Virus record (IMG/VR): IMGVR_UViG_3300042988_002854
Location: 1 to 44,269 of that record
Reading direction: 5' to 3' (one strand)
Source of the DNA: a virus
Length of the DNA: 44,269 nucleotides
Position numbers and translations under genes: made by a program. The notes under the pieces are model-generated. The model did not search any database. It saw only the letters and a list, made by a program, of their open reading frames with translations, and was not told the origin of the DNA. Shown here in pieces: positions 28,407-43,617 of this stretch; position 1 is the first letter of the stretch; every line of letters begins with the position of its first letter.

Positions 28407-30716
28407 TCAGTTGTCGGCATAGGGGGTATAGGCAGGCGTGGGCGGGTGTTTGAGGCCTACGCCCTGGAAACCCCGCACGCCCATGCTGTTGCGCCACTTC
28501 TCCACGCCGCGCGTGATGAGCAGGTCGGAGAACCGGCGCTGCGAGCCGATGAATTCGCCGGCCGACTCCGCCCATTGCTTCCAGTCGGTAAACAGTTCGG
28601 CTGTCAGCGACTTGGCATTCACCGTGAATACACAGCGTTCCTCGAGCCAACGGCCCATGGCATCTTCAGAGTCGAAATATTCCTCGGTGGCCGACACCAC
28701 ACTGGCCGGCGGCTTCAAGCCATCCCGCTGCCACGCAAGGCAGCCGGCCACGGCCCAGGCCAAAATCCCATCGCGTTCGGCGAGCAACTTTTCGGTCAAT
28801 CGACCATCACGCCGTTCGGGCGGAATCGTCACCGTGAACGGAACCATGTGCATTCGCCGTTTCATCGCCTCATCGATATTGCGAATGGCCGGCTTGTGGT
28901 TGCCGACAATGACCGGCTTGAACTGCGGCGTGTACTCGAAGAAGTCCTGTCGCATGAAGCGCGCCGAAATCTTGTCGCCACCCGTGATGGCCTTCACCTT
29001 GGACTCATTCAAACGCCGTCCCTGTTCAGTTTCGATCGCCGTCACAAAGCGCGCACCACGCAGCCCCGCCAGATCGGTCGGATGGCGGTCGCCTCGCGTT
29101 TCGACGAACGTATCCATCGACGCAGTGGCCGCGTAATCACCAAGGATGGTACTGATCACGTTGGCGAACACGCTCTTTCCGTTGGCACCGGTGCCGTACA
29201 GGAAGAACAGCGCGTGGGCACTGGTGACACCGGTCAGGCAATAGCCGACCATGCGCTGCAGGTAGGCTTGTAGATCACCATCGCCACCGGTGACGTCGGA
29301 TAGGAAAGCCATCCATTGCGGGCAATCGCCGCCTGGCGTGGCCGTCGTGATCTTGGTCATCCGATCGGTCCGATCATTCGCGCGCTTGCGACCGGTCTTG
29401 AGATCAACAGCGCCACCGGGGGTGTTGAGCAACCACGGATCGGCATCCCATTCCTCGGTCGTAGCCGCATGCCGCCGATCTGCCCGCGCCAGCCGCTCCA
29501 CGCCACCGACCGTGCTGGAACTGGCGAGCTTGGCTGCGATCTTGGGGTTGCCCGCCTTCAATGCCGCGTGGCGGCAGACGCTGCGAATCAGGTCCGTGGC
29601 GGCGAGCGTGTCCTCGGTGCGCCAGCGGCAGCCGTCCCACACCAGCCAGCGACCCCATGTCGCCACATAACGCCAGTCACGGTGATAGCGGCGTGTAAAT
29701 GCCAGCGCCAGCGCATCTTCAGTACCCCACACGGACTCATCACTGCTGACCACCGGCTCGGCGTCATCGGTGACGTCATGCATCTGCAGGCGCGGGCCAT
29801 GCGCGAGGAAGGTTCCCACGTCAAAGCCTTCCAAGATGGCATCGGCTGCGTCCCACCCTTCGGCAGCCTCCTCTGGCGGGTAGAGGATGTGACAGGTTCG
29901 CCCACCGGCAGACAGGATTGCCTGCGCGGCCTGCGCCGCGTAATCCCAGCCCGGCTTGTCACGGTCAGGCCAGATCAGTACGGCCTTACCGGACAGCGGT
30001 GACCAGTCAGTCTTGTCCACCGGAGCGTTTGCACCATGCATCGCGGTGGTGGCCGCGATCCCAGCGTCAATCAAGGCCTGCGCGCATTTCTCGCCTTCGA
30101 CCAGTACGACCTGCGCGGCGCTGACTATGCCCGGCTGGTTGTAGAGCGGACGCGGATCGGGTGGTGCCATCTTGCGGCGCTTGGCATCCCACGGACGGAA
30201 CTCCTTGCGTTGACCGGGTGGGTCATAGCGATAGACGACTGCGATCAGTTGGCCACTGGCATCCAGGTAGTCCCATTTCGCGGTCGCAGGACCGAGGTCA
30301 TCGATGGCAGCGCTGCGCCGTGACCTGGCCGCCCGAGTCGGCGCCAGACTGGAGCGCCCGACAAGTTCAGAGCAGAAGGTGAGCAGGCGCGGAAAGTCTG
30401 TACGCGCGTCGATTTGTTGATTGCCCGCGATCACGTCGAAGATGTCACCGCCTTCACCGCTTTGGCGGTCCGTCCACAGGCCCGCCTTGTCGCCAGAGAG
30501 AACGATCTCCAAGCTGTCACCTGGGCTCCCAAGCACATCGCCGATATGAAACTTTCCACGCCGTACCTTGCCGGCCGGGAACAATGTGACCAGCACCGAC
30601 TCGAGCCGCCTCAGCAGCGCGCTCCGGATTTCATCGCGCAACGCCGCCGGGTCCTGCGTAACCGGGAATTGGCAGTCATTAAAGTCGAGCGGGTCGTGAC
30701 CTGCAGTTTCAGTCAT
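28407..30716 (-). CDS. Primase-helicase: Toprim domain plus D5/SF3 helicase
   Basis: This protein of about 769 aa is a phage/plasmid replication protein. A Toprim-like domain (VVLVEGEKCAQALIDAGI, then LIWPDRDKPG) spans about residues 195-280. A D5 N-like region follows around 350-470. The SF3 helicase has Walker A GTGANGKSVF near residue 508, then RFVTAIETEQGRRLNESKVKAITGGDKISARFM and VIVGNHKPAIRNIDEAMKRRMHMVPF. It should prime and unwind at the phage origin. The ATG at 30716 has GGAGGG 6-7 nt upstream. The 143-bp gap after it (28264-28406) shows no gene. Confidence 0.92.
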   Translation of the reverse strand: MTETAGHDPLDFNDCQFPVTQDPAALRDEIRSALLRRLESVLVTLFPAGKVRRGKFHIGDVLGSPGDSLEIVLSGDKAGLWTDRQSGEGGDIFDVIAGNQQIDARTDFPRLLTFCSELVGRSSLAPTRAARSRRSAAIDDLGPATAKWDYLDASGQLIAVVYRYDPPGQRKEFRPWDAKRRKMAPPDPRPLYNQPGIVSAAQVVLVEGEKCAQALIDAGIAATTAMHGANAPVDKTDWSPLSGKAVLIWPDRDKPGWDYAAQAAQAILSAGGRTCHILYPPEEAAEGWDAADAILEGFDVGTFLAHGPRLQMHDVTDDAEPVVSSDESVWGTEDALALAFTRRYHRDWRYVATWGRWLVWDGCRWRTEDTLAATDLIRSVCRHAALKAGNPKIAAKLASSSTVGGVERLARADRRHAATTEEWDADPWLLNTPGGAVDLKTGRKRANDRTDRMTKITTATPGGDCPQWMAFLSDVTGGDGDLQAYLQRMVGYCLTGVTSAHALFFLYGTGANGKSVFANVISTILGDYAATASMDTFVETRGDRHPTDLAGLRGARFVTAIETEQGRRLNESKVKAITGGDKISARFMRQDFFEYTPQFKPVIVGNHKPAIRNIDEAMKRRMHMVPFTVTIPPERRDGRLTEKLLAERDGILAWAVAGCLAWQRDGLKPPASVVSATEEYFDSEDAMGRWLEERCVFTVNAKSLTAELFTDWKQWAESAGEFIGSQRRFSDLLITRGVEKWRNSMGVRGFQGVGLKHPPTPAYTPYADN

Positions 30717-30945
30717 GGCTGCCCTCCACACGATTGGCAGGGTCACCATGCAGGTCCTGCCAGGCCGACAACTCGGACAACTTGAAGCGGATCAGGCGTC
30801 CGATCCGGTAGTGCGGAATCAGCAGCTTGGTGCGCTGCGCCGCATTGGTGAGGTAGTACATCGGCAGGTTCAGCGTGTAGGCCGCCTCGCGCGCATCGAT
30901 GAAGGGCTCGCCAATCGGCACCAGTGACGAATGGGAATTACTCAT
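30709..30945 (-). CDS. Small helix-turn-helix protein (AlpA/excisionase-like)
   Basis: This 78-aa protein contains PFIDAREAAYTLNLPMYYLTNAAQRTKLLIPHYRIGRLIRFKLSELSAWQ, the MerR/AlpA-type HTH with RIGRLIRFKLSEL, as in excisionases and small phage regulators. It could be a replication accessory or a regulator. The gene overlaps both neighbours (4 nt and 8 nt), so it is made together with the primase. Confidence 0.75.
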   Translation of the reverse strand: MSNSHSSLVPIGEPFIDAREAAYTLNLPMYYLTNAAQRTKLLIPHYRIGRLIRFKLSELSAWQDLHGDPANRVEGSHD

Positions 30946-31679
30946 GGCGTAGTCCTCCAGCAGCGCTCTGCCCATGCGCAGAACTTGCATTCGAAGTGGG
31001 TGGAGTCGGAGAAACTGCGTGGCAGTAGCTCACCAGCCTCGGTGGCCTGAATGACGCGAGCCGCACGGTCCGACATGCGCTGCGCTAGGCCGGCATCGAA
31101 GGGGATCAGTTCGGCGTAGATCTCCATCGTGTCCGCGTTCACGGCGGTGAACAGCGCCGGATGGTCATGCAGCGTCAGGTAGCCCTGATACAGCGCGACC
31201 TGCGCGGCATAGATCGGTTTGGCTACAGCCAGGCCTTGCTTTTCCAACTCACGCCAGGACTTGGCGCCCAGGCACTTGTTTTCCCAAAGGGCTGGATAGG
31301 CGAAGCCTTCGGGGCCGCCGATCAAGACGCCGTCGACATGCCCGCGCAGCCGGCCGCCCGCCACCGAAAATCCGAACTGGTGGCCGTTGGCGTCTTCAGT
31401 CTTGAGGCTGAAACCCGCCAGTCGCAGCCAGCGGATGACCATGTCTTCCGTGTGGTGACCGCGCTCGAAGATGCGCAGCAGACGGCCACTGAACGCCCGG
31501 CCATCGTCGACCGGTGCCTTGGCATATTCATACTGTAGTTGCCGCTCGCAGGCTGCACCCAGGCGCGATGCACCGATATATTCGCGCGCTGGTGTCACAT
31601 CGCGCTCTTGCTCCAGCGCGCGATCCAGCAGTGCCTCGACGCGCCCAGACAGGCTGGCTGATGAATTGAAATCCAGCAT
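30942..31679 (-). CDS. PD-(D/E)XK nuclease, Cas4/RecB-like with C-terminal cysteines
   Basis: The 245-aa protein has GASRLGAACERQLQYEYA with a cysteine, HTEDMVIRWLRLAGF, the nuclease core GHVDGVLIG...YPALWENKCLG (D, ExK) and a C-terminal HFECKFCAWAERCW. The arrangement of one early and three late cysteines fits a 4Fe-4S cluster as in Cas4/AddB-type exonucleases. It probably resects DNA for recombination with the SSB-like and RecA-like products. The ATG at 31679 follows GGAGG. A GTG at 31682 is possible. Confidence 0.87.
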   Translation of the reverse strand: MLDFNSSASLSGRVEALLDRALEQERDVTPAREYIGASRLGAACERQLQYEYAKAPVDDGRAFSGRLLRIFERGHHTEDMVIRWLRLAGFSLKTEDANGHQFGFSVAGGRLRGHVDGVLIGGPEGFAYPALWENKCLGAKSWRELEKQGLAVAKPIYAAQVALYQGYLTLHDHPALFTAVNADTMEIYAELIPFDAGLAQRMSDRAARVIQATEAGELLPRSFSDSTHFECKFCAWAERCWRTTP

Positions 31680-32167
31680 CACTTCACCTCCCAGGGTAGG
31701 TCGTCCTTCATGTCGCCAAACGGGTGGTCAGCCGGTTCCCGAATCGGGTCGCTCACGGTTTCGGTTGCCGGAATGCGCACCGGCGGGTACTTGCTGCGCT
31801 CGTGCTGCGCAGCCATTTCGTCCACGTAGGCCGTGACGATGGCATCAATCACCTTCAGTGCCTCGGCTTCCGTGTACGCGCCCAGCGGCTTGTCAAAGCC
31901 GATGGCATCAGCGGCCTCTCCGAAAAACTTCAGGCACATGCGCATCGCAGCATGCTCCAGAGGTGTGGCATCAACCATGGCGCCCTCCGGTGGCAGGTCG
32001 GAATCGAGCGCACGCGTCCAGTTGCCATAGAGCTTGTGAAACGCGTCCTGGCAGCGGCGCGAGCAAAACGCCCAGTCGATGGGATAGCGCCGGGGGTCGG
32101 CAATTCGGTGACGGTTGTCCGTGTGGCCGAACCCCCGGGCCTGGCGTGAGCAGACCCAACATTTCAT
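31679..32167 (-). CDS. DUF6511 family phage protein
   Basis: This 162-aa protein begins MKCWVCSRQARGFGHTDNRH and continues YPIDWAFCSRRCQDAFHKLYGNW. It thus has a small treble-clef type zinc site (CxxC...CxxxC) at the N-terminus, the DUF6511 pattern. The C-terminal half is acidic and helical. The function is unknown. It always lies in replication/recombination operons of this phage type, as here between nuclease and SSB-like genes. A strong GGGGAGG precedes it. Confidence 0.78.
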   Translation of the reverse strand: MKCWVCSRQARGFGHTDNRHRIADPRRYPIDWAFCSRRCQDAFHKLYGNWTRALDSDLPPEGAMVDATPLEHAAMRMCLKFFGEAADAIGFDKPLGAYTEAEALKVIDAIVTAYVDEMAAQHERSKYPPVRIPATETVSDPIREPADHPFGDMKDDLPWEVK

Positions 32168-32814: not shown

Positions 32815-33639
32815 TTAGGCGTTGCCGGCATCGGCATCCGGCTGGTAAGGCGTGCCGAGGCACTTGGCGATGAGTTTTCCGAGGTGGGGTTCCTCGATGG
32901 CATCGAGCCGACCACTGCGGTCCTTGCTCGGGTAGCCGAAGGTGTTGTCGGCGCGGGTGACGAATCCCCGGTAGGGCGTCCCGTCATCGGCTTTCAATAC
33001 GGCCAGCGTGACCACCTCATCGAGCACGCCTGGCAACTCCAGCGCGGTCTTGCTGCCCTCGAGTTGCAACTGGTAAAAGCGGCGATTGAAGTCGTCGGTT
33101 TTCTCTTCCAGGATGGCGACGTAGATGACGTGCTTGTCACGCACGTGCTGGAGGTGGGTCAGCGCCGTGATCATTTCCTGGCCGAGCAGGCCGTAAGCCC
33201 CCCGGTTGTCGGGCTTTCCGGTTTTGTCGGAGAACGCCTGCGGCTGCGTTTTGCACCAGGCAAAGCACAAGCGCGAGAGCACAGTCAGGCTGTCGACGAA
33301 GTAGGTGTCGTACTTCGCCAGTTGTGCCGGATCGCCGTAGTTGGCGCAGACATGCTCGTAATGCGCCTGCGAAAACGCCTGGTCAGCAGTGGCGGTCGGC
33401 ATCGGACCGGCAAGGAACACCACGAGATCGCGGAATTCCTGCCAGGTGCGTGGCCGAACGGTATCGCCCGGCCAGTCGCGCACCGACAGGTCGCCAGCTT
33501 CCAGATCCACGAATAGCGTGGACTTCGCCGGCAACGTGCGCAGCTGGGTGGTTTTGCCTACGCCGGGAAAACCCACCAGGCCAACCTTGGCGCTGTGTTT
33601 CTCCCTCAGGCGCTCTTCTGCAGAGATGATGGGAAGCAT
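32815..33639 (-). CDS. RecA-like P-loop ATPase, phage recombination (Sak4-like)
   Basis: This 274-aa protein has Walker A GFPGVGKTTQLRTLP near residue 23, LFVDLEAGDLSVRDWPGD, a Walker B-type strand YDTYFVDSLTVLSRL near 120, and KHVIYVAILEEKTDDFNRRFYQLQLEGSKTALELPGVLDEVV. This small single-domain pattern is that of phage nucleotide-binding proteins in the Sak4/RAD51 group, which promote strand annealing together with an SSB. The pairing with DUF669 supports it. ATG at 33639 overlaps the previous stop; a longer upstream frame is a shadow of the antirepressor gene. Confidence 0.8.
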   Translation of the reverse strand: MLPIISAEERLREKHSAKVGLVGFPGVGKTTQLRTLPAKSTLFVDLEAGDLSVRDWPGDTVRPRTWQEFRDLVVFLAGPMPTATADQAFSQAHYEHVCANYGDPAQLAKYDTYFVDSLTVLSRLCFAWCKTQPQAFSDKTGKPDNRGAYGLLGQEMITALTHLQHVRDKHVIYVAILEEKTDDFNRRFYQLQLEGSKTALELPGVLDEVVTLAVLKADDGTPYRGFVTRADNTFGYPSKDRSGRLDAIEEPHLGKLIAKCLGTPYQPDADAGNA

Positions 33640-34388
33640 CACGCCACCTCCCGGATCACGTCGGCCACGTCCGGATTCCAGAGAATCTGGTAGCCAGAAT
33701 GCCCGTTGCGGGAAAACGGCAGTGCCTCTGCCCATGCTTTGCCGGTATCGGTCAGTTCCCACTCGTCGCGGTCGTTCTTGAACTGGAAGCCCAGTGCCTG
33801 CAGGCGCAGATTGACGCTGCGCGCCGACATGCCCATGCGCTCACCAACCTGCGTCGGGTTCAAACTGCAGATGGCTTCATTGGCCGCCGGCAGTACCTTG
33901 CGCAGGGGCTCGACTGCCAGCCCCGTGTTTTCATGAATGGCGGTGAGCGTGGCTGCCATGGCGATGCCCGGCTTGACGCCCGGCACCTTGGCGATGGCCT
34001 CGCCAATCGACAAAATGGCGATCACCTTGTCCTGCGTCGGTGCCGGCAGGGAAGCCACCGCACCGGACACGGCATAGCTGCCGGTCTTGCGGATCGACGG
34101 CAACACCTCGTGCGTGACCCAGCGCTTGAAGCGCTTGGCCTCCGGCTTGCGGCTGCCCAGCACCAGATTGAACAGGCCGGACTCACTCACCACCGTCATT
34201 TCCTGTGCGCCGCCAAGGGTGTGAATTGAACTCACACCCTTTTCGTCATCGTCCAGGCGCTCCAGGGCTTTGCGATCCAGATGCAGGGTGGAGAGGAGAT
34301 CGGCAGCAACGAACAAGGGCTCGCCGTTCTGGTCAACGACCACACGCACGTCATGCGACTCGAATTCGAAGGCGACGAGCTGGTTCAT
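33639..34388 (-). CDS. BRO-family antirepressor
   Basis: The 249-aa protein has an N-terminal BRO domain (DVRVVVDQNGEPLFVAADLLSTLHLDRKALERLDDDEKGV...VVSESGLFNLVLGSRKPEAKRFKRWVTHEVLPSIRKTG, residues 12-105). The C-terminal part ends with an HTH-like region (VGERMGMSARSVNLRLQALGFQ). BRO/Ant proteins relieve repression by binding the phage repressor. Here it is encoded in the early operon opposite the XRE repressor gene. Confidence 0.87.
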   Translation of the reverse strand: MNQLVAFEFESHDVRVVVDQNGEPLFVAADLLSTLHLDRKALERLDDDEKGVSSIHTLGGAQEMTVVSESGLFNLVLGSRKPEAKRFKRWVTHEVLPSIRKTGSYAVSGAVASLPAPTQDKVIAILSIGEAIAKVPGVKPGIAMAATLTAIHENTGLAVEPLRKVLPAANEAICSLNPTQVGERMGMSARSVNLRLQALGFQFKNDRDEWELTDTGKAWAEALPFSRNGHSGYQILWNPDVADVIREVA

Positions 34389-34675: not shown

Positions 34676-35172
34676 GCTTGGGTCTCCTGTACGAGGGCGA
34701 GGCGGTAGCTGGCCTTGCCGGGTTTGACGGTGCGGGCTTTGGCGAACGTTTCCTTGAGCGTCGACGGCCACGCGTTGAAGCGGGATTCGGAAACCGAGTA
34801 GTCGGTGTCGATGTAGTCGCTGACCTTGTCGCCGGCAGCGGCGATGCGTTGAGCGATTTCCGCGAGTTGAGCCTGATCCCACTGCACGCGCTTGGGCACA
34901 TCAACCGTGATCCGCAGCGACCCATCGGTGAGATGGCAAACGCCGAAATCACGACCGTTGGCCTGGCGGGCGTCGATGGCCTGCTCGGCATAGCGCTGGT
35001 CGAGCGCAGCGGTAAAGCGATCCAGTACGCCCTTGATGGCGGTTTGCAGGGTGAGCAGATTGACGTGCGCTTCCTGCAGTTGGTCCGCAGGTAGTGCGGC
35101 GATCTGCGCGACACTCATTTCCGCAACGGGCATAACCGTGTCGAAGGTGACGGTGGTAACGGGGGCGTTCAT
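34672..35172 (-). CDS. Hypothetical early phage protein
   Basis: In this 166-aa protein the middle (ALPADQLQEAHVNLLTLQTAIKGVLDRFTAALDQRYAEQAIDARQANGRDFGVCHLTDGSLRITVDVPKRVQWDQAQLAEIAQRIAAAG) resembles conserved phage proteins of unknown role. It is predicted soluble and helical with a short beta segment. The gene overlaps both neighbours by 4 nt, as the rest of this early operon. Confidence 0.7.
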   Translation of the reverse strand: MNAPVTTVTFDTVMPVAEMSVAQIAALPADQLQEAHVNLLTLQTAIKGVLDRFTAALDQRYAEQAIDARQANGRDFGVCHLTDGSLRITVDVPKRVQWDQAQLAEIAQRIAAAGDKVSDYIDTDYSVSESRFNAWPSTLKETFAKARTVKPGKASYRLALVQETQA

Positions 35173-35450
35173 GCGCGCTCCCCCTTCATCACGCGTTCCG
35201 AAGTCGAGATGTGCAGGGCGCAGTGCTCGTATTCGGTGATCGCGTCCAGCGGGTAGGTCACGCGCTTGGAGAGCTTGAGGTACTTCGGGCCACGGCCTTC
35301 AGTACGCCAGCGTTGCAGGGTCTTGGGACTTACGCCCCAACGATGCGCCAGCTCGGTTTCAGACAGTACACGCCGGTCGAACGGCGCCCCGGGTGCAGGC
35401 AAGGACTCGGTGTCCATTGCGCTGCGATTTGCGGTCGTTGTTTGCAGCAT
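35169..35450 (-). CDS. MerR/AlpA-type helix-turn-helix regulator
   Basis: This 93-aa protein contains LSETELAHRWGVSPKTLQRWRTEGRGPKYLKLSKRVTYPLDAITEYE, the HTH_17-type winged helix seen in AlpA/Xis-like proteins. ATG at 35450 has AGGGG 5-6 nt upstream. Starting at 35543 would add an unlikely leader overlapping a repeat array. It is the first gene after the internal terminator, with the GGCGAAC repeat array just upstream. It may control the second part of the early operon or bind those repeats. Confidence 0.82.
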   Translation of the reverse strand: MLQTTTANRSAMDTESLPAPGAPFDRRVLSETELAHRWGVSPKTLQRWRTEGRGPKYLKLSKRVTYPLDAITEYEHCALHISTSERVMKGERA

Positions 35451-35503
35451 TGATACCCCTTTCAAGTAGGTGAGGAACAACGCTTGCAGTGTCGAAATTG
35501 GGT

Positions 35504-35599
35504 GGCGAACTGTTGATGGGCCGACTGGCGAACTCGACGGCAACTTCCGGTTCGCCAGTGCCGCAGAAATGAAAACGGCGAACCGAAATGGCTCGCCGT
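35504..35599. repeat. Array of GGCGAAC motifs, iteron- or operator-like
   Basis: GGCGAAC occurs at 35504-35510, 35527-35533 and 35577-35583, and inverted (GTTCGCC) at 35550-35556. A near copy (GCTCGCC) is at 35591-35597. The first three starts are exactly 23 bp apart, about two helical turns. Two pairs form larger inverted repeats (ACTGGCGAA / TTCGCCAGT and ACGGCGA / TCGCCGT). The array lies in the 171-bp noncoding gap upstream of the HTH regulator gene. Confidence 0.6.
35570..35599 (-). terminator. Hairpin with T-rich tail inside the early operon
   Basis: On the minus strand ACGGCGA (35593-35599) pairs with TCGCCGT (35575-35581), followed by TTTCATTTC. It would separate the first two early genes (35622-37810) from the rest. 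The loop is 11 nt, and the stem also belongs to the GGCGAAC repeat array, so its main role is uncertain. Confidence 0.45.
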
Positions 35600-35621: not shown

Positions 35622-36578
35622 TTATGCGCAGGCTATTTCGCTCTTGAGCGCGTAGGTGCCATCCCGTTGCACTGCATCGACCAGTTGCTTATAGGCATGC
35701 CTCGGTCCCTCGTACCGGGGATCGCCTTTGTTTTTGGTCTTGACCTTGAACACGTCGATCGGCTTGGTACTGCCGAGATTGGCTTTTGCCATGATGCGCT
35801 CCGCAGTTTGCGGCTCACCTTTGAAATGCCACAGGGCCTTGAACACACCGGACTGCGCATCCGACAATTTGATCGGTCCCTGCGTCCAACTATCGAGATA
35901 GACGGTGCAGAAGTCCGCCGAGAAGGGGCCATTGAGTGCGGCGCCATCATCTTCAGTGCTGACGAATGTGGAACCAGGTTCGATGAAATGCACGTTGCCG
36001 CCGTACAAGCTGAAACGCTCCTCTAACGGAATCCACACCGCACCGTCCAGGTCATGATCCACGTCCTGAAGTGGTTTCGGCGTGATCAGCCAAGGAGGAT
36101 TGGCACTGCGTGCGCCGGCCCTGACCTGGAGACTCGGGTGGAGAAGCACATGCTGCAGATTACGGCCCACGATCACCGTGTGCCGTTGATGGGTGCCGAT
36201 GCGCCAGATGCCACCGGCAATTGCAACGGCCGCCTGCTGCGATGGAATGTCGAGTGCGCCGCGCAACTTGCGGATCATCCAATCAGGATCAAGTGTCCAG
36301 GCACGCGTGTCCATCCTGTCCACGGCAACCTGCCCGCAGTCAGGGCAATTGCATGCGAGGCCGGAGGCCGCCTGGACCACCATGCATCGATGTAATTGGC
36401 AGTAGGGACACAGCACATAGCGTGCATCGACCTTGGCCGGCTTTACTGCCTTCAGATCCGTCAGTATCGCCAGCGCCGCCCGTTCAGGATCTGAGAGGGC
36501 AGCTTCCAGCACTACGTCGGCATGCCCAAAAAGGCGGCATGCCAAGGCCCAGGCATCTGCATTCGCGCTGTGCATCAT
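35622..36578 (-). CDS. Hypothetical early phage protein with zinc ribbon
   Basis: In this 318-aa protein a zinc-ribbon is visible at about residues 57-83 (CPYCQLHRCMVVQAASGLACNCPDCG). The rest has beta-rich parts (HQRHTVIVGRNLQHVLLHPSLQ) and a C-terminal helical region (SDAQSGVFKALWHFKGEPQTAERIMAKA) that could be a winged helix. No family is recognised. It overlaps the preceding gene by 4 nt and is followed by a terminator-like hairpin, so it forms a two-gene immediate-early unit. Confidence 0.7.
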   Translation of the reverse strand: MMHSANADAWALACRLFGHADVVLEAALSDPERAALAILTDLKAVKPAKVDARYVLCPYCQLHRCMVVQAASGLACNCPDCGQVAVDRMDTRAWTLDPDWMIRKLRGALDIPSQQAAVAIAGGIWRIGTHQRHTVIVGRNLQHVLLHPSLQVRAGARSANPPWLITPKPLQDVDHDLDGAVWIPLEERFSLYGGNVHFIEPGSTFVSTEDDGAALNGPFSADFCTVYLDSWTQGPIKLSDAQSGVFKALWHFKGEPQTAERIMAKANLGSTKPIDVFKVKTKNKGDPRYEGPRHAYKQLVDAVQRDGTYALKSEIACA

Positions 36579-37810
36579 TCGCTGCGCTCATCCACCAGGT
36601 CATTGCGGGCGCCATCCATGCCCACCTGCGGCGACAGGGTCTGTTTTTCCTGCAGGATGCCGATCTGCACCAGATAGCTCTCCAGCTGGGCGCGCAGTTT
36701 TTCGTCAAATTTGTGCAGGTTCAGCCGACCACGGCGGGTCACTTCCACCGTTACGACCGGGCTGCGTTGCTTTCCCGGCGGCGGGGCGTAGTACAGATTG
36801 ATGCTGGCCGCACTGACCAGCCACTGATGTACCAACGGATTGTCCTGGCAAAAATTCTCCGCGATCAGTTCGGTGACACACTGGTGCTCGCTGCTGGCCA
36901 TGGCCGTGAACTCAGCCTTGAGTTGCGTATCCGGGCTCATCAGGGTCAGCGACTTGACCTGCAATGAAACGAAGCCATCATCCATGGCCTGCGGCACCTG
37001 GAACCCGAGCTTGAGCCCTGAGAGGTCAAGCGTAGGAGGTTTGATGCGCTGGGCATTGGCGCTGACGCCAAGCAGGTGCTCGGCGAAAACCTGCGCCAGC
37101 ATCTCGTGGTACTTTGCGCCGCCACGAATGATGGTGCGCACCACACCCGTGCCCTGGGAATATTCCAGCACCATGTGAATGTTGGGGCTGCCGACGCGGC
37201 GGGTCAGCACCACGCCTTCAAATTCCAGCTGTTGCTTGGCCAGGTCCTTGGCGTGAACGGTCACCAGTTGGGTGCCGTGTGCGCGGTCGAGAATGTGCGC
37301 CACGCACACCTCACCGCAGCCAAGCTCCACTTTGTAGAAGTCCTTGATCGCCTCGCAGAATGCCTGCAACGACGGTGCGTCGCGCCGAATCGGGACCTTC
37401 ACGCCCAAGTCGTGCTGCTGGGACTGCTGCACATGACTGTCGACAAATTCAACCTCGGCGGCCTGTTCAAACAGGTCCGGGTGGCGCACGAACAACCAGA
37501 ACGCGCGATGCTGATCGCTCGGGCAAGCCATCAGCCCCGTGAGTGCAGTGGCATTCCAGGTGGCCATCTGGATCATGGCCTGCGTGCCGCGCGAAGTGGC
37601 CAGCTGATCACTGACCATCAATCCAGCGCCGATCTTGTCGCGCACCAGCGGATCAGGGCATTCCTGAATCGCCTTGATCAGACGGGTGGTCGTGCCCGTG
37701 TCATCTGACCAGTCAAAATCGTGCGGCAGCGCCAGACCATGTTGCTCGAGGTAATCCTGTAGGGTTGCATCGACCGGCAGGTTGAGCAGGACGTCAGCGT
37801 AAGTATTCAT
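36575..37810 (-). CDS. Hypothetical first early-operon protein
   Basis: This 411-aa protein is the first gene behind the strong leftward promoter. It begins with a helical region (NLPVDATLQDYLEQHGLALPHDF) and has a mixed alpha/beta body without clear motifs (WLFVRHPDLFEQAAEVEFVDSHV; FVSLQVKSLTLMSPDTQLKAEFTAMASSEHQCVTELIAENF). No membrane segment or known catalytic motif was seen. Proteins of this kind occur in related prophages, but I know no function. Its position suggests a takeover or regulatory role. Confidence 0.7.
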   Translation of the reverse strand: MNTYADVLLNLPVDATLQDYLEQHGLALPHDFDWSDDTGTTTRLIKAIQECPDPLVRDKIGAGLMVSDQLATSRGTQAMIQMATWNATALTGLMACPSDQHRAFWLFVRHPDLFEQAAEVEFVDSHVQQSQQHDLGVKVPIRRDAPSLQAFCEAIKDFYKVELGCGEVCVAHILDRAHGTQLVTVHAKDLAKQQLEFEGVVLTRRVGSPNIHMVLEYSQGTGVVRTIIRGGAKYHEMLAQVFAEHLLGVSANAQRIKPPTLDLSGLKLGFQVPQAMDDGFVSLQVKSLTLMSPDTQLKAEFTAMASSEHQCVTELIAENFCQDNPLVHQWLVSAASINLYYAPPPGKQRSPVVTVEVTRRGRLNLHKFDEKLRAQLESYLVQIGILQEKQTLSPQVGMDGARNDLVDERSE

Positions 37811-37882: not shown

Positions 37883-37926
37883 GTTTCACGAAAAAAGCCG
37901 ATATCGCCACAAAAGTAAAGTGAAAC
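37883..37926. promoter_or_regulatory. Inverted repeat GTTTCAC / GTGAAAC in the early leader
   Basis: GTTTCAC (37883-37889) and GTGAAAC (37920-37926) are exact inverted copies, 30 bp apart, just downstream of the expected leftward transcription start. They could be operator half-sites for the XRE repressor or part of the leader RNA. Evidence is only the repeat itself and its place. Confidence 0.35.
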
Positions 37927-37938
37927 GATACAAACACG

Positions 37939-37966
37939 ATTCTACCCGCGCATGCCCGCTTGTCAA
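37939..37966 (-). promoter_or_regulatory. Strong leftward early promoter
   Basis: On the minus strand a perfect -35 TTGACA (37961-37966), a 16-bp spacer and -10 TAGAAT (37939-37944), one mismatch from consensus. It drives the early operon starting with the gene at 37810 and is back-to-back with the repressor promoter. It is the best promoter match in the window. Confidence 0.8.
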
Positions 37967-37967
37967 T

Positions 37968-38009
37968 CAAAGAGTGACTTCTTCTGGTATTTAGCTCTCT
38001 TTGCTATAC
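37968..38009 (+). promoter_or_regulatory. Repressor promoter and candidate operator
   Basis: Rightward: extended -10 TGCTATACT with TATACT at 38004-38009, without a clear -35. The inverted repeat CAAAGAG (37968-37974) / CTCTTTG (37996-38002), 21 bp apart, touches both this -10 and the leftward -35. A repressor bound there could shut the early promoter and tune its own gene. Transcription would start about 24 bp before the XRE start codon. Confidence 0.55.
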
Positions 38010-38040
38010 TTCTGGGCTCTGATTCACTTGCGAGAAAGCC

Positions 38041-38391
38041 ATGGCATCCCCCTTTGGAATACGACTACGGGAGTTTCGGGAAGCTAAGGGATTGACGCTG
38101 CAGCAGGTGGCTGAAGCCGTTGGGTGTACCAAGGCCTACGTGTGGGAGCTGGAAATGCGCGAAGGCCAGAAACCCACGGCTGAGCGGCTCAACGCCATCG
38201 CCAAGACCCTGGGCGTCACCATTCAGGACCTGCTTGGTGAACCCGTGGCGCCCATGCAAACACCGACTGCGACCGATGTGGCCTTCTTCCGGGAGTACGC
38301 CGGCATGAGTGAGGCCGAGAAAACCAAGTACCGTGAGGCGATGAAACTCATGTTCGGTTCGCCGTCCAAACCTGATTCGGAGAAGTCTTGA
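38041..38391 (+). CDS. XRE-family repressor
   Basis: This 116-aa protein has an N-terminal lambda-type HTH (GIRLREFREAKGLTLQQVAEAVGCTKAYVWELEMREGQKPTAERLNAIAKTLGVTIQDLLGE, residues 6-68) and a short helical tail (DVAFFREYAGMSEAEKTKYREAMKLMFG). It has no LexA-type autocleavage domain. Inactivation therefore probably depends on the ImmA/IrrE-like protease encoded next, or on the BRO antirepressor. It is divergent from the early operon. Confidence 0.85.
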   Translation: MASPFGIRLREFREAKGLTLQQVAEAVGCTKAYVWELEMREGQKPTAERLNAIAKTLGVTIQDLLGEPVAPMQTPTATDVAFFREYAGMSEAEKTKYREAMKLMFGSPSKPDSEKS

Positions 38392-39314
38392 CGGCTGCGG
38401 ACGACCTAAACGCCTTCAAGGCCGCCTCCCGCATCCTTACCTGGCTTGGCGCGACCGGGCGACTGACCCTGCCTATTGACCTCGATCTGGTCCGGCAACT
38501 GCTGCCCGACACGCCACTGGGTCGCGGCAACACGATCAAGGCCCCAGCAGATCTCACGTGGAATGCCAGCGAAGGTGCCCTGGTGCGCAACCCCGACAAA
38601 TTGGAAGAATGGGGAATATTCGTCAACCCGAAGGCACGCCCTGAACGCCAGCGCTTCACCATTGCCCATGAGCTTGGGCATTTCGTCCTGCACCGCGCCA
38701 GCCAGGCCAGTTTCCTGTGTGACAAGGAAAGCGTGTATGCCGGCATCGACGGCCTGAAGCAGATCGAACGTGAGGCAGATGATTTCGCCAGCAATCTGCT
38801 GATGCCCGGCGACATGCTGCGCGACAGGATCACCGGCAAGCGCATCGATTTCCATCTGATCGGTGAGTTGGCCCACGAGTTCGGCGTATCGCTCGAGTCG
38901 ATGTCCATCCGCATCATCAAGTACACCGAACAGCGCGCCATGCTGGTGTATTGGGATCACGGCTTCCTGAAATACCAATGGCCCAGCGGCGAAGCTCGAA
39001 AGACTCGCGTGCGTTTGCGCAAGACCGGTGATCCGCAGGAACCGCTGATTGGCACCCTGGCTGCCGACGATTCAGTGGAGCAGGAGTGGGATGGTGTTGA
39101 TATGCCTGCCAAGGTCTGGTGCTCCAGTGAGGCGGACGACATCAAGCTGCGGGAGATGAAGCACACCTACACCAACGGCAATCGTGTGCTGTCCATGCTC
39201 ATGTTGGAGTCCGCGCCGCCGCGAACCTATTTCCGCAGCGGTTGGGAGGATGACGAGACGCGTGATACTTTCGATCGTTTCGTCGACAACGGGCAACCGC
39301 CAATCCGTTCCTGA
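38388..39314 (+). CDS. ImmA/IrrE-family metalloprotease, TTG start
   Basis: The 308-aa protein has the zinc-protease motif HELGH at residues 94-98 within RFTIAHELGHFVLHR. A downstream acidic helix READDFASNLLMP supplies the third ligand. A C-terminal domain of about 120 aa has beta-rich segments (AMLVYWDHGFLKYQWPSG). Family members cleave a partner XRE repressor (ImmR in ICEBs1, DdrO in Deinococcus). The TTG start overlaps the repressor stop, with GGAG 5 nt upstream, so the two are translationally coupled. The target is inferred. Confidence 0.87.
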   Translation: MTAADDLNAFKAASRILTWLGATGRLTLPIDLDLVRQLLPDTPLGRGNTIKAPADLTWNASEGALVRNPDKLEEWGIFVNPKARPERQRFTIAHELGHFVLHRASQASFLCDKESVYAGIDGLKQIEREADDFASNLLMPGDMLRDRITGKRIDFHLIGELAHEFGVSLESMSIRIIKYTEQRAMLVYWDHGFLKYQWPSGEARKTRVRLRKTGDPQEPLIGTLAADDSVEQEWDGVDMPAKVWCSSEADDIKLREMKHTYTNGNRVLSMLMLESAPPRTYFRSGWEDDETRDTFDRFVDNGQPPIRS

Positions 39315-39328
39315 AAGGAAATCCACAT

Positions 39329-39835
39329 ATGTGGGACGGCGTAAAAGCTTTGATAGATGAGATAAAAAGCTGCGAAGGCGCTGGAGCAACGGTTTCCGCC
39401 GTCGCCATGGCCTACGTCTGCATTGATACCATGGCTTTCCTTTCGCTACCTGTTGACCGCGATACGCAAGGTAAGGCGGACTTCATTTGCTGGGTAGATA
39501 ACTATCTAAAGGGGCACCCCGATCAACCGTATCAGTATCGCGGGATTGATGTTTATGGCGCGCGTTGTGCTGTCCTCCACGCGTTTAGTTCGGATGCCGA
39601 TTTCCATGAAAAAAATGCTGATGCAAAAAGGTTCGGCTATCACGATGGTGGCAAACATGGCTACGATCCAAAAATTGATGATCGCCTTGTGATTATCGGG
39701 ACGGCGTCCTTCATCAACGACGTTGTGCATGCAGTCTGTGCCTTCATGGAAGTCTGCAAGGCGGACGTGGCCATGCGGCAGCGAGTCGAAAACCGCTTGC
39801 CAAAGGTGCTGGCAACCTTCCCATTCAGAATTTGA
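39329..39835 (+). CDS. HEPN-like protein with R-x4-H motif
   Basis: This 168-aa helical protein has the motif YGARCAVLHAFSSDADFHEKNADAKRFGYHDGG, with Arg79-x4-His84 as in HEPN ribonuclease-like domains. An N-terminal helix (ATVSAVAMAYVCIDTMAFLSLP) and a C-terminal helix (IIGTASFINDVVHAVCAFMEVC) would complete the bundle. AAAGGA precedes the ATG, and only 14 bp separate it from the protease gene. HEPN proteins are often RNA-cutting toxins in phage defence or toxin-antitoxin systems. That role is inferred, as no curated family was checked. The less GC-rich sequence suggests later acquisition. Confidence 0.6.
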   Translation: MWDGVKALIDEIKSCEGAGATVSAVAMAYVCIDTMAFLSLPVDRDTQGKADFICWVDNYLKGHPDQPYQYRGIDVYGARCAVLHAFSSDADFHEKNADAKRFGYHDGGKHGYDPKIDDRLVIIGTASFINDVVHAVCAFMEVCKADVAMRQRVENRLPKVLATFPFRI

Positions 39836-39929
39836 TCCTCGGCTTTACCGCCGAAGCCCGCTAAAACGAGTTACTCCGCATGGGATCGACCCATAGCATG
39901 GATAGCGTTTTCCATCAGGACCGCCAACC

Positions 39930-40166
39930 ATGCCAAAAATCGAAACTCCCTCCACATCACGCCGTGGCGCACAGGATTCACGCCCCCGGCATCCGTACCG
40001 CGAAATCGCAGACCTGCTTGCGGCTGCCATCATGCGTGCCCGCGTAAAGGCAGGCACTGCGCCAGAAGCAACTGCGGCGCAGGCAAACAGCGAAGTTTGT
40101 CTTGGCTTTACTGCCAACCAGAGCGTTCATACGAACCCGTCTTATGCAGAAGGAGTTCGTGAATGA
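39930..40166 (+). CDS. Small protein of the serine-recombinase cassette
   Basis: A 78-aa basic N-terminus (MPKIETPSTSRRGAQDSRPRHPYREIADLLAAAIMRARVKAG) is followed by a variable tail. It precedes and overlaps the DUF2924 gene by 4 nt. Small proteins in this slot accompany DUF2924-recombinase operons in many proteobacteria. A DNA-binding accessory or directionality role is possible but not shown. The ribosome site is weak. The 94-bp gap before it shows only a small inverted repeat. Confidence 0.6.
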   Translation: MPKIETPSTSRRGAQDSRPRHPYREIADLLAAAIMRARVKAGTAPEATAAQANSEVCLGFTANQSVHTNPSYAEGVRE

Positions 40167-40627
40167 CGACACACGCAGCCAACGTGGCGGCGCAAATCGC
40201 GCAGCTGCCAACCTTACCCATGGAAAACCTCTGGGCACTATGGGATGACTTTTTCGACCGGCGCCCCGGTCATCATCACCGCACATACCTGGAGACGCGC
40301 ATCGCTTACAAGCTACAGGAGCGCGCCCACGGTGGATTGCCCGTCACCCTTCGCCGCCGTCTGGAAAAAATCGGCGAAACCGGTGAGATCCCCAACCAGA
40401 AACGTCGGTCGGAAAACCAGGTCGCTCCCGGCACAGTGATGGTGCGGGAATTCAACGGCATCAACCACCGGGTCACGGTGCTGGACGATGGACGCTTCGA
40501 ATACCAAGGGCGCCCATACAAAAGCCTCACCGCCGTTGCGCGCGTCATTACCGGGACCACCTATTCCGGCCCGGTGTTTTTCGGCCTGAAGCCAACACAC
40601 CGCGAGCGCCAGAAGGAGGTCGCATGA
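40163..40627 (+). CDS. DUF2924 family protein, recombinase-associated
   Basis: The 154-aa protein shows the DUF2924 pattern: VAAQIAQLPTLPMENLWALWDDFFDRRPGHHHRTYLETRIAYKLQERAHGGLP, then PGTVMVREFNGINHRVTVLDDGRFEYQGRPYKSLTAVARVITGTTYSGPVFFGL. Family members are found almost always just before a large serine recombinase. ATGA overlaps link it to both neighbours. A helper or directionality function is plausible, unproven. Confidence 0.88.
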   Translation: MTTHAANVAAQIAQLPTLPMENLWALWDDFFDRRPGHHHRTYLETRIAYKLQERAHGGLPVTLRRRLEKIGETGEIPNQKRRSENQVAPGTVMVREFNGINHRVTVLDDGRFEYQGRPYKSLTAVARVITGTTYSGPVFFGLKPTHRERQKEVA

Positions 40628-42051
40628 AACCGACGAATACACGTCCTGCCATCACGCCCAAGCGCCGCTGCGCGATCTACACCCGTAAGTCCACTGACGA
40701 AGGGCTGGACCAGGAATACAACAGCCTGGAGGCACAACGCGATTCCGCGTTGGCATTCATCAGCAGCCAACGGCACGAAGGATGGATCGCCATTGATGAC
40801 GGCTACGACGATGGTGGATTCTCCGGCGGCAACATCAACCGTCCTGCGCTCAAGCGACTGCTTGCCGATGTTGAGGACGGACGCATCGATGTCGTGGTCG
40901 TCTACAAAATCGACCGCCTATCTCGCTCACTCGGTGACTTCGCCAAGATCGTCGATCTTTTCGATGCCCACGGCGTAACCTTCGTTTCCGTCACCCAGCA
41001 GTTCAACACCACGACCAGCATGGGCCGACTCACGCTCAATATCCTGCTGTCCTTCGCGCAATTCGAGCGGGAGGTGACCGGCGAGCGCATCCGCGATAAG
41101 TTGGCGGCGAGCAAGGCCAAAGGCATGTGGATGGGTGGCGTTCCGCCACTGGGTTACGACGTGCAGGATCGCAAGCTGGTCATCAATGAGCCTGAGGCGG
41201 TGCTGGTTCGCGACATCTTCACTCGCTATGCCGAACACGGATCGGCGGCGCAACTGGTGCGGGAACTGCAGATCGAGGGACACACCACAAAGGCATGGGT
41301 GACGCAAGGCGGCCGGCACCGCGTTGGGAAAACCATCGACCAGCAATATTTGTTTGCGATGATGCGCAACCGCCTCTACCTTGGCGAGATCAGCAATCAT
41401 GGCCAGTCGTACCCCGGGCAGCATCAGGCGATCATCTGCCGTGAAGTGTGGGATGCCGTGCATGCCATCATCGAGAAGCGGAAAAAGGGGCCACGGGTCA
41501 AGCACACCGAGAATCCAGCACTGCTGACAGGCTTGCTTTACGCGCCGGATGGTCAACGCCTGCTGCCGTCCCACACCACGAAAAAGAACGGCCGGCGCTA
41601 CCGGTACTACGTGCCGTATCTGGAAAAGCGACAAGGTGCAGGCGCATCCGCACAAGCAGGACGTCGCAGCATCGGGCCGCTGCCGGCAGCCGAAATCGAA
41701 CGCGCTGTGCTTACCCAGGCGCATCAGGTACTGCAGGCACCGGAGATGATCATTGCGGTTTGGCAGGCCAGCATGGCGTCGCAGGAGCGCGCTGCAATGG
41801 ACGAGCCGTCCATCGTGGTCGCAATGCGGCAAATCAGCGCGGTGTGGGAGCACCTGTTCCCAGCCGAACAGAACCGCATCATGCGGTTGCTGATTGAGCG
41901 AGTTCAACTGCGCGATGATGGAATGGACATTCTCTGGCGCGACGATAGCTGGCCCCAATTCCGCAGGGAATTGGAACGCCAGCCGTTTGTCAGCGAGCAA
42001 CGCGAATCCACCGACCCGTCGGAATTCGATGCCATGGAGGTGCTGGCATGA
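40624..42051 (+). CDS. Large serine recombinase (integrase)
   Basis: The 475-aa protein has a resolvase catalytic domain at residues 15-165, with nucleophile Ser23 in YTRKSTDEG and arginines in KIDRLSRSLGDFAK and FEREVTGERIRDK. The recombinase domain follows (GYDVQDRKLVINEPEAVLVRDIFTRYAEHGSAAQLVREL). The usual zinc-ribbon region (LTGLLYAPDGQRLLPSHTTKKNGRRYRYYVPY) has lost its cysteines, and a short helical tail follows. It should integrate and excise the prophage. It is coupled by 4-nt overlaps to DUF2924 and the HTH partner. Confidence 0.93.
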   Translation: MKPTNTRPAITPKRRCAIYTRKSTDEGLDQEYNSLEAQRDSALAFISSQRHEGWIAIDDGYDDGGFSGGNINRPALKRLLADVEDGRIDVVVVYKIDRLSRSLGDFAKIVDLFDAHGVTFVSVTQQFNTTTSMGRLTLNILLSFAQFEREVTGERIRDKLAASKAKGMWMGGVPPLGYDVQDRKLVINEPEAVLVRDIFTRYAEHGSAAQLVRELQIEGHTTKAWVTQGGRHRVGKTIDQQYLFAMMRNRLYLGEISNHGQSYPGQHQAIICREVWDAVHAIIEKRKKGPRVKHTENPALLTGLLYAPDGQRLLPSHTTKKNGRRYRYYVPYLEKRQGAGASAQAGRRSIGPLPAAEIERAVLTQAHQVLQAPEMIIAVWQASMASQERAAMDEPSIVVAMRQISAVWEHLFPAEQNRIMRLLIERVQLRDDGMDILWRDDSWPQFRRELERQPFVSEQRESTDPSEFDAMEVLA

Positions 42052-42521
42052 ACAACGATGACAACATCAGCCGTGGAGCGCAACGCAAGGTTGAAATCAC
42101 GATCACAGGCGAGGCTCGCCAGTTTGAAGCCGGTGGCCAGTCCGTGACGTTCGTGCCGCTGACCATCAAGCGCCGCAGCTACAGCAAGGTACTGGTACCA
42201 CCGCCAGGCAGCCAGAGCGCCAAGGTCAAGTCATCGTTTGATCTACCGCTGATCCGCACCTTGGGCAAGGCCTACTACTGGCAGCGGCTTCTGGACACTG
42301 GCGCCGTCGCCAATGCAACTGAACTGGGCCGGCAGCTTCGCCTGGAGCCCGGCTGGGTCGCCGAGGTATTGCGGCTGACGCGGTTGGCACCGGACATCGT
42401 CCAGGCCATCCTGGAGGGGCGTCAGCCGCGCCACCTCAACCTGCATGCGGTACGCGGCCGCCAGGCTGAGGTGCCAGTCGATTGGCAGGAGCAGCGGGTG
42501 CTCTTTGGGTTCGCAAAATAA
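42048..42521 (+). CDS. HTH partner protein of the serine recombinase
   Basis: In this 157-aa protein the C-terminal half has a helix-turn-helix similar to that in ParB-type proteins: LLDTGAVANATELGRQLRLEPGWVAEVLRLTRLAPDIVQAILEGRQPRHLNL. The N-terminal part (IKRRSYSKVLVPP) is basic. Proteins of this kind follow serine recombinases in this cassette, and the same segment is fused to the recombinase C-terminus in other genomes. It probably helps DNA binding or excision control. Confidence 0.75.
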   Translation: MNNDDNISRGAQRKVEITITGEARQFEAGGQSVTFVPLTIKRRSYSKVLVPPPGSQSAKVKSSFDLPLIRTLGKAYYWQRLLDTGAVANATELGRQLRLEPGWVAEVLRLTRLAPDIVQAILEGRQPRHLNLHAVRGRQAEVPVDWQEQRVLFGFAK

Positions 42522-42551: not shown

Positions 42552-43484
42552 TTATAGCAAGGCAACAAGTTGCTGGCAAAGCTGCTTTGGAGAGGCGAAC
42601 TGAACTTGCTGAGGCAATTTTGCGCTACGACGCAGCATGGCGATTAGCAAGCACGCTGTGTAAGACCAACACGTCGCATTGTCCGCGACGTCTGCTTCCA
42701 AGACGAGGTGCACAAAACGCTCTCGAATCGGTGGATGCGTGTCCTGAACAGCACTAGCCATACCTTGAGACTCGGCATGAGCGATAGTCAGTGCGGCGGT
42801 CGCTAAGCCGATGACTCGCTTGCTGGCTACTCTGTCGGCGACCTCCCCCGCTGTAGAAGAATAGGCATCGACCTTCTCAAGGAGCATACTCCGACTGAAG
42901 TCGTCGCAGGCTTGTTCCTCGTCAGCAGGCACTGTTGGAGCATTCCCCTCAGCCGCAAATTGCACGTGCTGGAATTCATGCAGGAAGGTCGCTGCCGCGG
43001 CCAAGCAGGCTATGTCAAAGCAGGCTTGGTCTTCAACGTTTGCTAGTGCTTCCCGATTCGTGCCAGGCCGAGGAACCTCGACAGGCCAATCCAACGCCTC
43101 AAGATCATTGACCAACTGAATCTGCTTCGCGAAGTAGAGCAGCGCGTCGAGTTCTGCCTCGGCTGCATCCAGGCCCACGTCATCGACAAGTGCCTGCGTC
43201 AAAATCTCGCCACTGAACGCTTCTCCGAACAAGACATGAGGGCCATATGCAACCAACGCCTTGAAGCCTGCAAAGGTAACGACCCAGTCATGGGCGAAGG
43301 TCTTGTGCATCCAGGAGACTTTGTTTCCAAGCGCACTAATGGCTAGGCCTGCACCGTCCTGCCTCAAAGCAAATCGAGGTTCGAACCGTTCCCAGAATAC
43401 TTGAAATTCCGACGCCCTTTCGGGGCAAGCCCCGAGCAGGAGATTTGAGACCGCGCTTGTAGGTACGTCAATTGGTTCTGACAT
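42552..43484 (-). CDS. Lit-like metalloprotease (peptidase U49 family), putative phage exclusion protein
   Basis: The 310-aa protein has a zinc-protease motif HEFQH at residues 169-173 in AAATFLHEFQHVQFAAEGNAP, followed by the acidic ADEEQACDDFSRSMLL at about 187-202. That is the layout of E. coli Lit (297 aa). Lit cleaves EF-Tu when a T4 Gol peptide is present, killing the infected cell. ATG at 43484 has GAGG 6 nt upstream. It lies convergent with the recombinase cassette (30 bp), the typical place for prophage cargo. Its trigger and substrate are unknown. The N-terminal 130 residues are not obviously conserved. Confidence 0.72.
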   Translation of the reverse strand: MSEPIDVPTSAVSNLLLGACPERASEFQVFWERFEPRFALRQDGAGLAISALGNKVSWMHKTFAHDWVVTFAGFKALVAYGPHVLFGEAFSGEILTQALVDDVGLDAAEAELDALLYFAKQIQLVNDLEALDWPVEVPRPGTNREALANVEDQACFDIACLAAAATFLHEFQHVQFAAEGNAPTVPADEEQACDDFSRSMLLEKVDAYSSTAGEVADRVASKRVIGLATAALTIAHAESQGMASAVQDTHPPIRERFVHLVLEADVADNATCWSYTACLLIAMLRRSAKLPQQVQFASPKQLCQQLVALL

Positions 43485-43512
43485 GTGTTGCCTCGGGCGT
43501 TGGCAAGTAACG

Positions 43513-43617
43513 TTAATGGCAGGATGCGGACGTAGCAAGAGAAACATCCAACCCGATGTAGCGGTTTGTGGAGTAATTTTGCGTTGATGCCAATTCAGTT
43601 GGTGGGGACATTTTCAT
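43513..43617 (-). pseudogene. IS110-type transposase remnant (N-terminus only)
   Basis: A short frame encodes MKMSPPTELASTQNYSTNRY and then IGLDVSLATSAS before a stop. The phrase IGLDVSL is the start of the DEDD domain of IS110/IS1111 transposases (first catalytic Asp). The homology ends abruptly about 34 residues in, just upstream of the Lit-like gene. Most of the element is lost. The surrounding gap (43485-43909) shows no other gene. Confidence 0.55.

Follow-up and report, generated by a model that had tools for sequence, protein, structure and literature searches.

CapH/CapP as the probable lysogeny switch of a temperate phage lineage, with an exchangeable cargo position in the repressor operon

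In phage lambda, the exclusion genes rexA and rexB are co-transcribed with the lysogeny repressor gene in the cI-rexA-rexB operon. In prophages of S. aureus, Tha, a tail-activated anti-phage protein of 301 aa whose HEPN domain is located at the C-terminus, is encoded in the cI operon together with an antisense partner, Ith/Xis (PMC11087260). A different type of repressor is found in the CapH/CapP pair, in which ssDNA activates CapP to cut the repressor CapH, whereby the pair controls adjacent immune operons (EMBO J 2026, PMC13373217; PMC10904395). Such regulation by CapH and CapP applies to CBASS, Pycsar, BREX, and Bub operons (Lau 2022, as cited in PMC13373217). The regulators, the idea of a cargo hotspot, and HEPN-based defence linked to a phage repressor are each already known. 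A CapH/CapP lysogeny switch with a cargo slot in the operon was not found in the open-licence papers that we searched. Here, we describe a locus for which sequence comparisons make it probable that lysogeny is controlled by CapH/CapP in a lineage of temperate phages from Burkholderiales and relatives, and that the switch operon contains an exchangeable cargo position.

The DNA analyzed here, referred to as the window, is an IMG/VR record spanning 44,269 bases and is itself a virus record. Three closely packed ORFs are located on its plus strand. The first one (38041-38391) encodes an XRE-type protein of 116 aa, the second one (38388-39314) starts with TTG and encodes a protein of 308 aa with an HELGH motif at residues 94-98, and the third one (39329-39835) begins 14 bp further on and encodes a 168-aa protein with the motif R79-x4-H84. 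The stop codon of the first and the start codon of the second ORF overlap by 4 bp (TTGA), and the same overlapping start is present in the relatives L001, L009, L010, L014, and L018. All three genes are conserved at the protein level among relatives. The ORF positions, the overlap, the 14-bp gap, and both motifs had been given in a first-pass annotation of the window and were all confirmed in the sequence.

The PADLOC models for capH (1.6e-24, residues 2-104 of 116) and capP (6.3e-54, residues 18-274 of 308) were the best matches of the first two gene products by a wide margin. When profiles built from 13 relatives were compared with the PDB, the CapH profile matched the CapH HTH domain (7t5u, 3.6e-17), and the CapP profile matched CapP (7t5t, 4.3e-40) over profile positions 60-274 with the conserved Cys aligned, whereby 7t5t and 7t5u outranked IrrE, SinR, and DdrO. 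Furthermore, the 308-aa protein, an ImmA/IrrE-like metalloprotease with an invariant C111, matches Pfam Peptidase_M78 (6.9e-22), and the 116-aa protein is the only HTH_3 (CI-type) match above the cut-off in the window. A homologous pair is present on the Thauera K11 plasmid, where it is oriented divergently from a CBASS operon with a cyclase gene and NucC. The window shows a full-length CapH, an HExxH-type CapP with a C-terminal domain, overlapping genes, and putative operators. As judged from these matches, the first two genes are a full-length, specific CapH/CapP pair. The first-pass annotation had described an XRE-ImmA pair, which fits in that a repressor and a protease are predicted to sense damage at a lysogeny switch, but the pair is not a generic one.

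The capH gene is oriented divergently from a leftward series of genes on the minus strand. This series begins with genes for a 411-aa protein (36575-37810; phrog_37634, function unassigned) and a 318-aa zinc-ribbon-like protein (35622-36578), and continues with those for an excisionase/MerR-like small HTH protein (35169-35543; phrog_66, 5.1e-7), an anti-repressor Ant-like protein (33639-34388; phrog_130, 3.7e-54), a Sak4-like ssDNA annealing protein (32815-33762; phrog_124, 1.3e-43), a Cas4-domain exonuclease (30942-31682; phrog_1990, 6.9e-75), and a DNA primase (28407-30749; phrog_6088, 3.1e-228). Because Ant, Sak4, the Cas4 exonuclease, and primase are among them, the leftward genes are regarded as early lytic genes. 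To the right of the trio, also on the plus strand, lie a 78-aa ORF (39930-40166), a gene for a DUF2924 protein (40163-40627; Pfam, 4.3e-47), a gene for a large serine recombinase that is the probable integrase (40624-42051; Pfam Resolvase, 2.4e-39; Recombinase, 4e-10), and a gene for a 157-aa recombinase-associated protein (42048-42521; phrog_14161, 2.6e-42). The 78-aa ORF has its own conserved leader, with a strongly conserved promoter-like block (GTTAC...TAGCAT) at 39860-39930 and at the same spot in relatives, and with a possible hairpin (AGCGTT...AACGCT) upstream of the ORF in many relatives. This leader may be involved in controlling the recombinase operon. A Peptidase U49-like protein is encoded on the minus strand (42552-43547), close to the right end of the record.

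Within a block that is conserved among relatives, the intergenic region contains a leftward sigma70-like promoter, P_L (TTGACA-N16-TAGAAT, 11/12; 37939-37966, minus strand). An operator-like 19-mer is located at about +1 to +19 of P_L (37914-37932, minus strand), and a second one (37992-38010, plus strand) overlaps the -10 element of the capH promoter (TATACT, 38005-38010). With a position weight matrix that was built partly from these two sites, they scored 25.6 and 23.8, respectively, which are the best and second best values in the window. The two sites are inverted relative to each other and span about 97-101 bp end to end. Among the aligned phages, left and right sites share a mean identity of 13.5/19, compared to a background of 4.65 with a 99.9th percentile of 11.9. 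The sites also covary within phages (P=0.0004 by shuffling, a statistic that ignores relatedness). The P_L site is present in nearly all CapHP phages examined, and the matrix scan did not yield the motif in eight relatives without CapHP. These patterns suggest that the lytic promoter as well as the operon of capH itself is under repression by CapH.

Related loci were searched with CapP, the 411-aa protein, and profiles, which led to more than 50 (pro)phage contigs as well as prophages in Burkholderiales genomes. The gene order around the switch is constant and comprises the 318- and 411-aa genes, the divergent capH-capP pair, a variable slot, the 78-aa ORF, the DUF2924 gene, and the recombinase gene. 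The slot extends from the capP stop to the start of the 78-aa ORF (39315-39929 in the window, plus strand), is 99-3118 bp long in 48 loci, and combines constant flanks with many alternative cargo genes over these 48 slots. Six of them contain nothing or almost nothing. The first cargo ORF has the same orientation as capP in 44 of 46 loci and starts between -41 and +40 bp from the capP stop in 39 of 46, which speaks for co-transcription with capP. A search for terminators within the slot revealed none. About 25 families occupy the first cargo position, an approximate count obtained by BLAST clustering of our own ORF calls. Among the cargo are HEPN, SIR2, GmrSD, HEPN-LOTUS, trypsin-like, SMEK nuclease-like, and ART-like proteins, a 404-aa family, and many unknowns. 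PADLOC matched SIR2, GmrSD/HEC-05/HEC-06, SMEK-REase, and trypsin-like PDC-S45 models, and weak AbiU2 matches were also obtained. For many cargo families there is no match at all, and one slot is occupied by KatG and Dps, so that the cargo is not only defence-related. HEPN cargo of the type seen in the window was found in only three CapHP phage loci.

Some of the slots deserve a separate description. The commonest cargo is a protein of ~290 aa with an HEPN-like RNNLVHH motif and a C-terminal OST-HTH/LOTUS domain, which is present in L064, L069, L071, L075, L079, L082, and L098 as well as in the genomic loci L175, L177-L179, and L182. The 404-aa cargo, with weak similarity to DUF6880, is found in L162, L166, L169, L185, and L192. 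As read from the sequence, the slot of L063 (4183-7031) contains a catalase-peroxidase-like gene on the minus strand and a gene for a Dps-like protein.

The distribution of the cargo shows, as far as can be read from gene sequences, that it has been exchanged between phages. The CapP protein of the window clusters with those of L009 and L010 in the CapP tree (100/99), apart from those of the HEPN carriers L001 and L014. L010 carries SIR2, and in the alignment the “empty” L009 shows a scar that consists of the last codons of a SIR2 gene. Carriers of HEPN and carriers of SIR2 are intermingled on this tree. The 404-aa cargo is 67% identical between two loci whose CapP proteins are 87% and 31% identical to that of the window. 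A CoiA-like cargo is 98% identical over 164 aa between L189 (6685-7179) and L001 (8604-9482), which are otherwise different prophages, and this identity points to a recent transfer. In the mosaic prophage L168, the serine recombinase and the DUF2924 protein are close to those of the lineage described here (72% and 68% identity, respectively), whereas identity is only 24-37% for capH/capP and the 411-aa gene. Thus, the switch itself seems to be exchangeable. More distant relatives with the same flanks (L028-L048) have neither CapHP nor cargo, and an HTH_3 protein is absent in 8 of 10 records of relatives without CapHP.

In order to judge what type of protein the cargo gene of the window (39329-39835, plus strand) encodes, sequence and structure comparisons have to be considered together. 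No match was obtained for the 168-aa protein in Pfam (HEPN families included), PADLOC, or NCBIfam, its only PHROGs match is a family of unknown function, and its sequence profile gave no credible match in the PDB. The R-x4-H motif alone is weak evidence, because it is present by chance in 28% of shuffles of the protein. In an HEPN active site, R-x4-6-H is located at the end of core helix 3 and an acidic residue in helix 2, a polar residue (N/D/H) directly after the Arg is typical but not obligatory, and in Csx1 a hairpin follows the HEPN motif (PMC3710099). Only nine columns are invariant among 12 homologues with identities down to 19-25%, and these include D33, R79, and H84. Two AlphaFold (AF2) models generated with different queries (pLDDT 77 and 73) place R79 and H84 where the third core helix (72-85) ends and D33 in helix 2 (21-38), with a beta-hairpin insert following the R-x4-H motif. 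For both models, the comparison with PDB folds ranked 2hsb, an HEPN protein, first (Foldseek E=1.2 and 1.4, not significant). A fold search in BFVD retrieved two viral proteins, both uncharacterised, with E values of 3e-4 and 3e-3.

It might be that the 168-aa protein is some other small helical protein, for instance a regulatory or nucleic-acid-binding moron. Such a reading would account for the lack of significance of the fold and Pfam matches, for the ease with which R-x4-H arises by chance, and for the invariant Cys80 that directly follows R79 in place of the usual polar residue. However, it leaves the conservation of precisely D33, R79, and H84, their HEPN-like placement in the predicted helices, and the recurrence of HEPN-superfamily entries among the top fold matches (2hsb, 1wol, AbiV, Csm6, and the toxin-antitoxin entry 7bxo; none of them significant) to coincidence, and we regard it as rather unlikely. 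We therefore hold with good confidence, based on the models and alignments, that the protein belongs to the HEPN type, and it is probably an HEPN RNase. The earlier proposal of an HEPN-like, operonic third gene is supported to this extent; the structure predictions yielded the expected topology in two models, but fold matches that stay below significance. Even if the protein were not an HEPN protein, the reading of the switch and the slot would not change.

Close homologues of the 168-aa protein are rare. Of 399 Burkholderiales genomes, 2 contain one, and samples at the level of class and phylum yielded only the reference Polaromonas genome. A tblastn search of named phages and plasmids found nothing, and an alignment-based scan of viral sequences for further homologues added only L052, which looks unrelated. 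The gene has a GC content of 51.3% compared to 60.4% for the window; its dN values are 0.12-0.30, with dN/dS being saturated at synonymous sites. In Polaromonas the homologue is located 3 bp and in Herbaspirillum 85 bp downstream of a CBASS 2TM effector gene, in both cases with a cyclase gene nearby. The CBASS-linked homologues, all directly downstream of 2TM effector genes, are found at L002:6460-8507 and around 7242-8519 in L003 and L006. These homologues possibly represent an unrecognised CBASS accessory. In a further Burkholderiales genome (L129:6362-7319), a 71%-identical homologue follows 39 bp after a HicA-HicB toxin-antitoxin pair. The positions after CBASS effectors and HicA-HicB support a putative role of the HEPN family in conflict. 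The first-pass annotation had suggested looking for the trio outside prophages; the bacterial homologues adjoin CBASS genes, HicAB, and others, and CapH-CapP are absent from the loci seen.

Taken together, the following working of the switch is proposed. CapH and CapP would take the place of a lambda-type CI repressor. CapH would bind the two matching sites at the early-lytic promoter and at its own promoter, and its occupancy would keep the prophage silent and the capH-capP-cargo operon autoregulated. Judging from spacing and strand, the cargo would be co-transcribed with the repressor, so that some of it would always be made in the lysogen. By analogy to the characterised pair, ssDNA arising from DNA damage or from an incoming phage would activate CapP, CapH would be cleaved, and repression would be lifted from the lytic genes as well as from the capH-capP-cargo operon. 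The HEPN cargo would then act as a latent anti-phage effector in superinfection exclusion or abortive infection that needs a phage trigger. By comparison with Tha, such a latent anti-phage effector is the most likely role of the cargo in the window. The wider reading, in which CapH/CapP have become the switch of a whole prophage lineage and immune effectors are exchanged through a slot in the repressor operon, is one that we favor by a small margin.

The first-pass annotation had offered two other ways in which the three genes might work together. One of them is a dedicated three-part system, in which a damage-sensing protease would cut the XRE repressor, so that a hitherto silent HEPN toxin is released. 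The gene order, the 14-bp spacing, the predicted functions, and the identification of CapH/CapP as a truly damage-triggered pair would all agree with this. Against it, the HEPN gene is just one of ~25 alternative cargo families and occupies the slot in three CapHP phage loci only, the other slots containing different genes or nothing, and its homologues elsewhere occur without CapHP. Since the gene apparently shares the promoter of CapH, it is also unlikely to be a toxin that is held off by CapH alone; as part of the repressor operon, it would be expected to be expressed in the lysogen already, and cleavage would only boost its expression. We consider this system improbable and reject it in its fixed form, as CapH-CapP remain constant while the cargo varies. 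The other proposal is an addiction device against prophage loss; here, the HEPN protein is considered as the toxin and CapH or CapP as the antidote. HEPN toxins do occur in toxin-antitoxin pairs, as is generally known, and one homologue follows HicA-HicB. However, no antitoxin-like gene is located beside the HEPN gene in the slot, and HEPN occurs without CapHP. CapH/CapP persist when the cargo is swapped or lost, which argues against a specific antidote role, and no CapH/CapP-HEPN pairing outlasts cargo swapping. An addiction device was therefore rejected as highly improbable, with a dedicated co-inherited antidote being absent and CapH-CapP being kept with other cargo or none.

A third possibility is that CapH-CapP and the cargo form a self-contained defence cassette beside the real lysogeny switch, with CapH regulating only the cassette. 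Since relatives have the same flanks without CapHP, the pair could be a module beside, and not instead of, another repressor, and CapHP elsewhere regulates immune operons. Against this, nearly all CapHP phages examined have the matching operator-like site in the early-lytic promoter region (about +1 to +19), relatives without CapHP do not have it, and no other CI-type HTH_3 protein above the cut-off is encoded in the window. We consider the inserted cassette unlikely, although less so than the three-part system. The reading of CapH/CapP as the switch corresponds best to the remaining option of the first-pass annotation, a defence module inside the lysogeny switch, which is the best supported of its proposals.

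A search with CapP and the divergent early protein in INPHARED (50,697 records) did not match any record. Thus, the lineage appears to have been overlooked in that collection. The locus joins two subjects that are usually treated apart, namely the regulators through which bacterial immune operons respond to DNA damage and the switches by which temperate phages control lysogeny. If the proposed working is true, a single ssDNA-triggered cleavage would both induce the prophage and raise the effector, and several of the slot families would be new anti-phage proteins, including the CBASS-adjacent HEPN family and the HEPN-LOTUS family. The slot provides a ready-made list in this regard, with ~25 families, many of them without a match to defence models, at one regulated position in dozens of related prophages.

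Compared to cI-rexA-rexB of lambda, the locus likewise has an effector position linked to the repressor, but repressor and effector differ and the effector position is highly exchangeable. Tha and the cargo of the window are both R-x4-H HEPN-type proteins encoded in what is, or here by inference would be, the repressor transcript of a temperate phage (PMC11087260). As compared by description, the protein of the window differs from Tha in its length of 168 aa, in that there is no CI, and in that no antisense partner was seen in the slot (PMC11087260). ImmR-ImmA of ICEBs1/TnSmu1 also combine an XRE repressor with an ImmA-type protease that control a mobile element, but the best profile match here is CapH/CapP, and the definition of ImmR-ImmA does not comprise an adjacent cargo slot (PMC10233336). 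With the known CapH+CapP systems, the locus shares the same two proteins according to PADLOC and PDB profiles, the same gene order and overlap, and one or more adjacent operons apparently under control of the pair. In contrast to these, CapH/CapP of the window seem to serve as a phage lysogeny switch that is divergent from early lytic genes and has a matching operator-like site there, and the cargo is usually one swappable downstream gene instead of a multi-gene immune operon. The defence hotspots of P2/P4-like prophages and the slot described here are both fixed phage positions with variable cargo, which is anti-phage in the hotspots (PMC9122126) and in part defence-like in the slot, whereby the slot belongs to another phage lineage than the P2/P4-like one and is located inside the repressor operon (PMC9122126).
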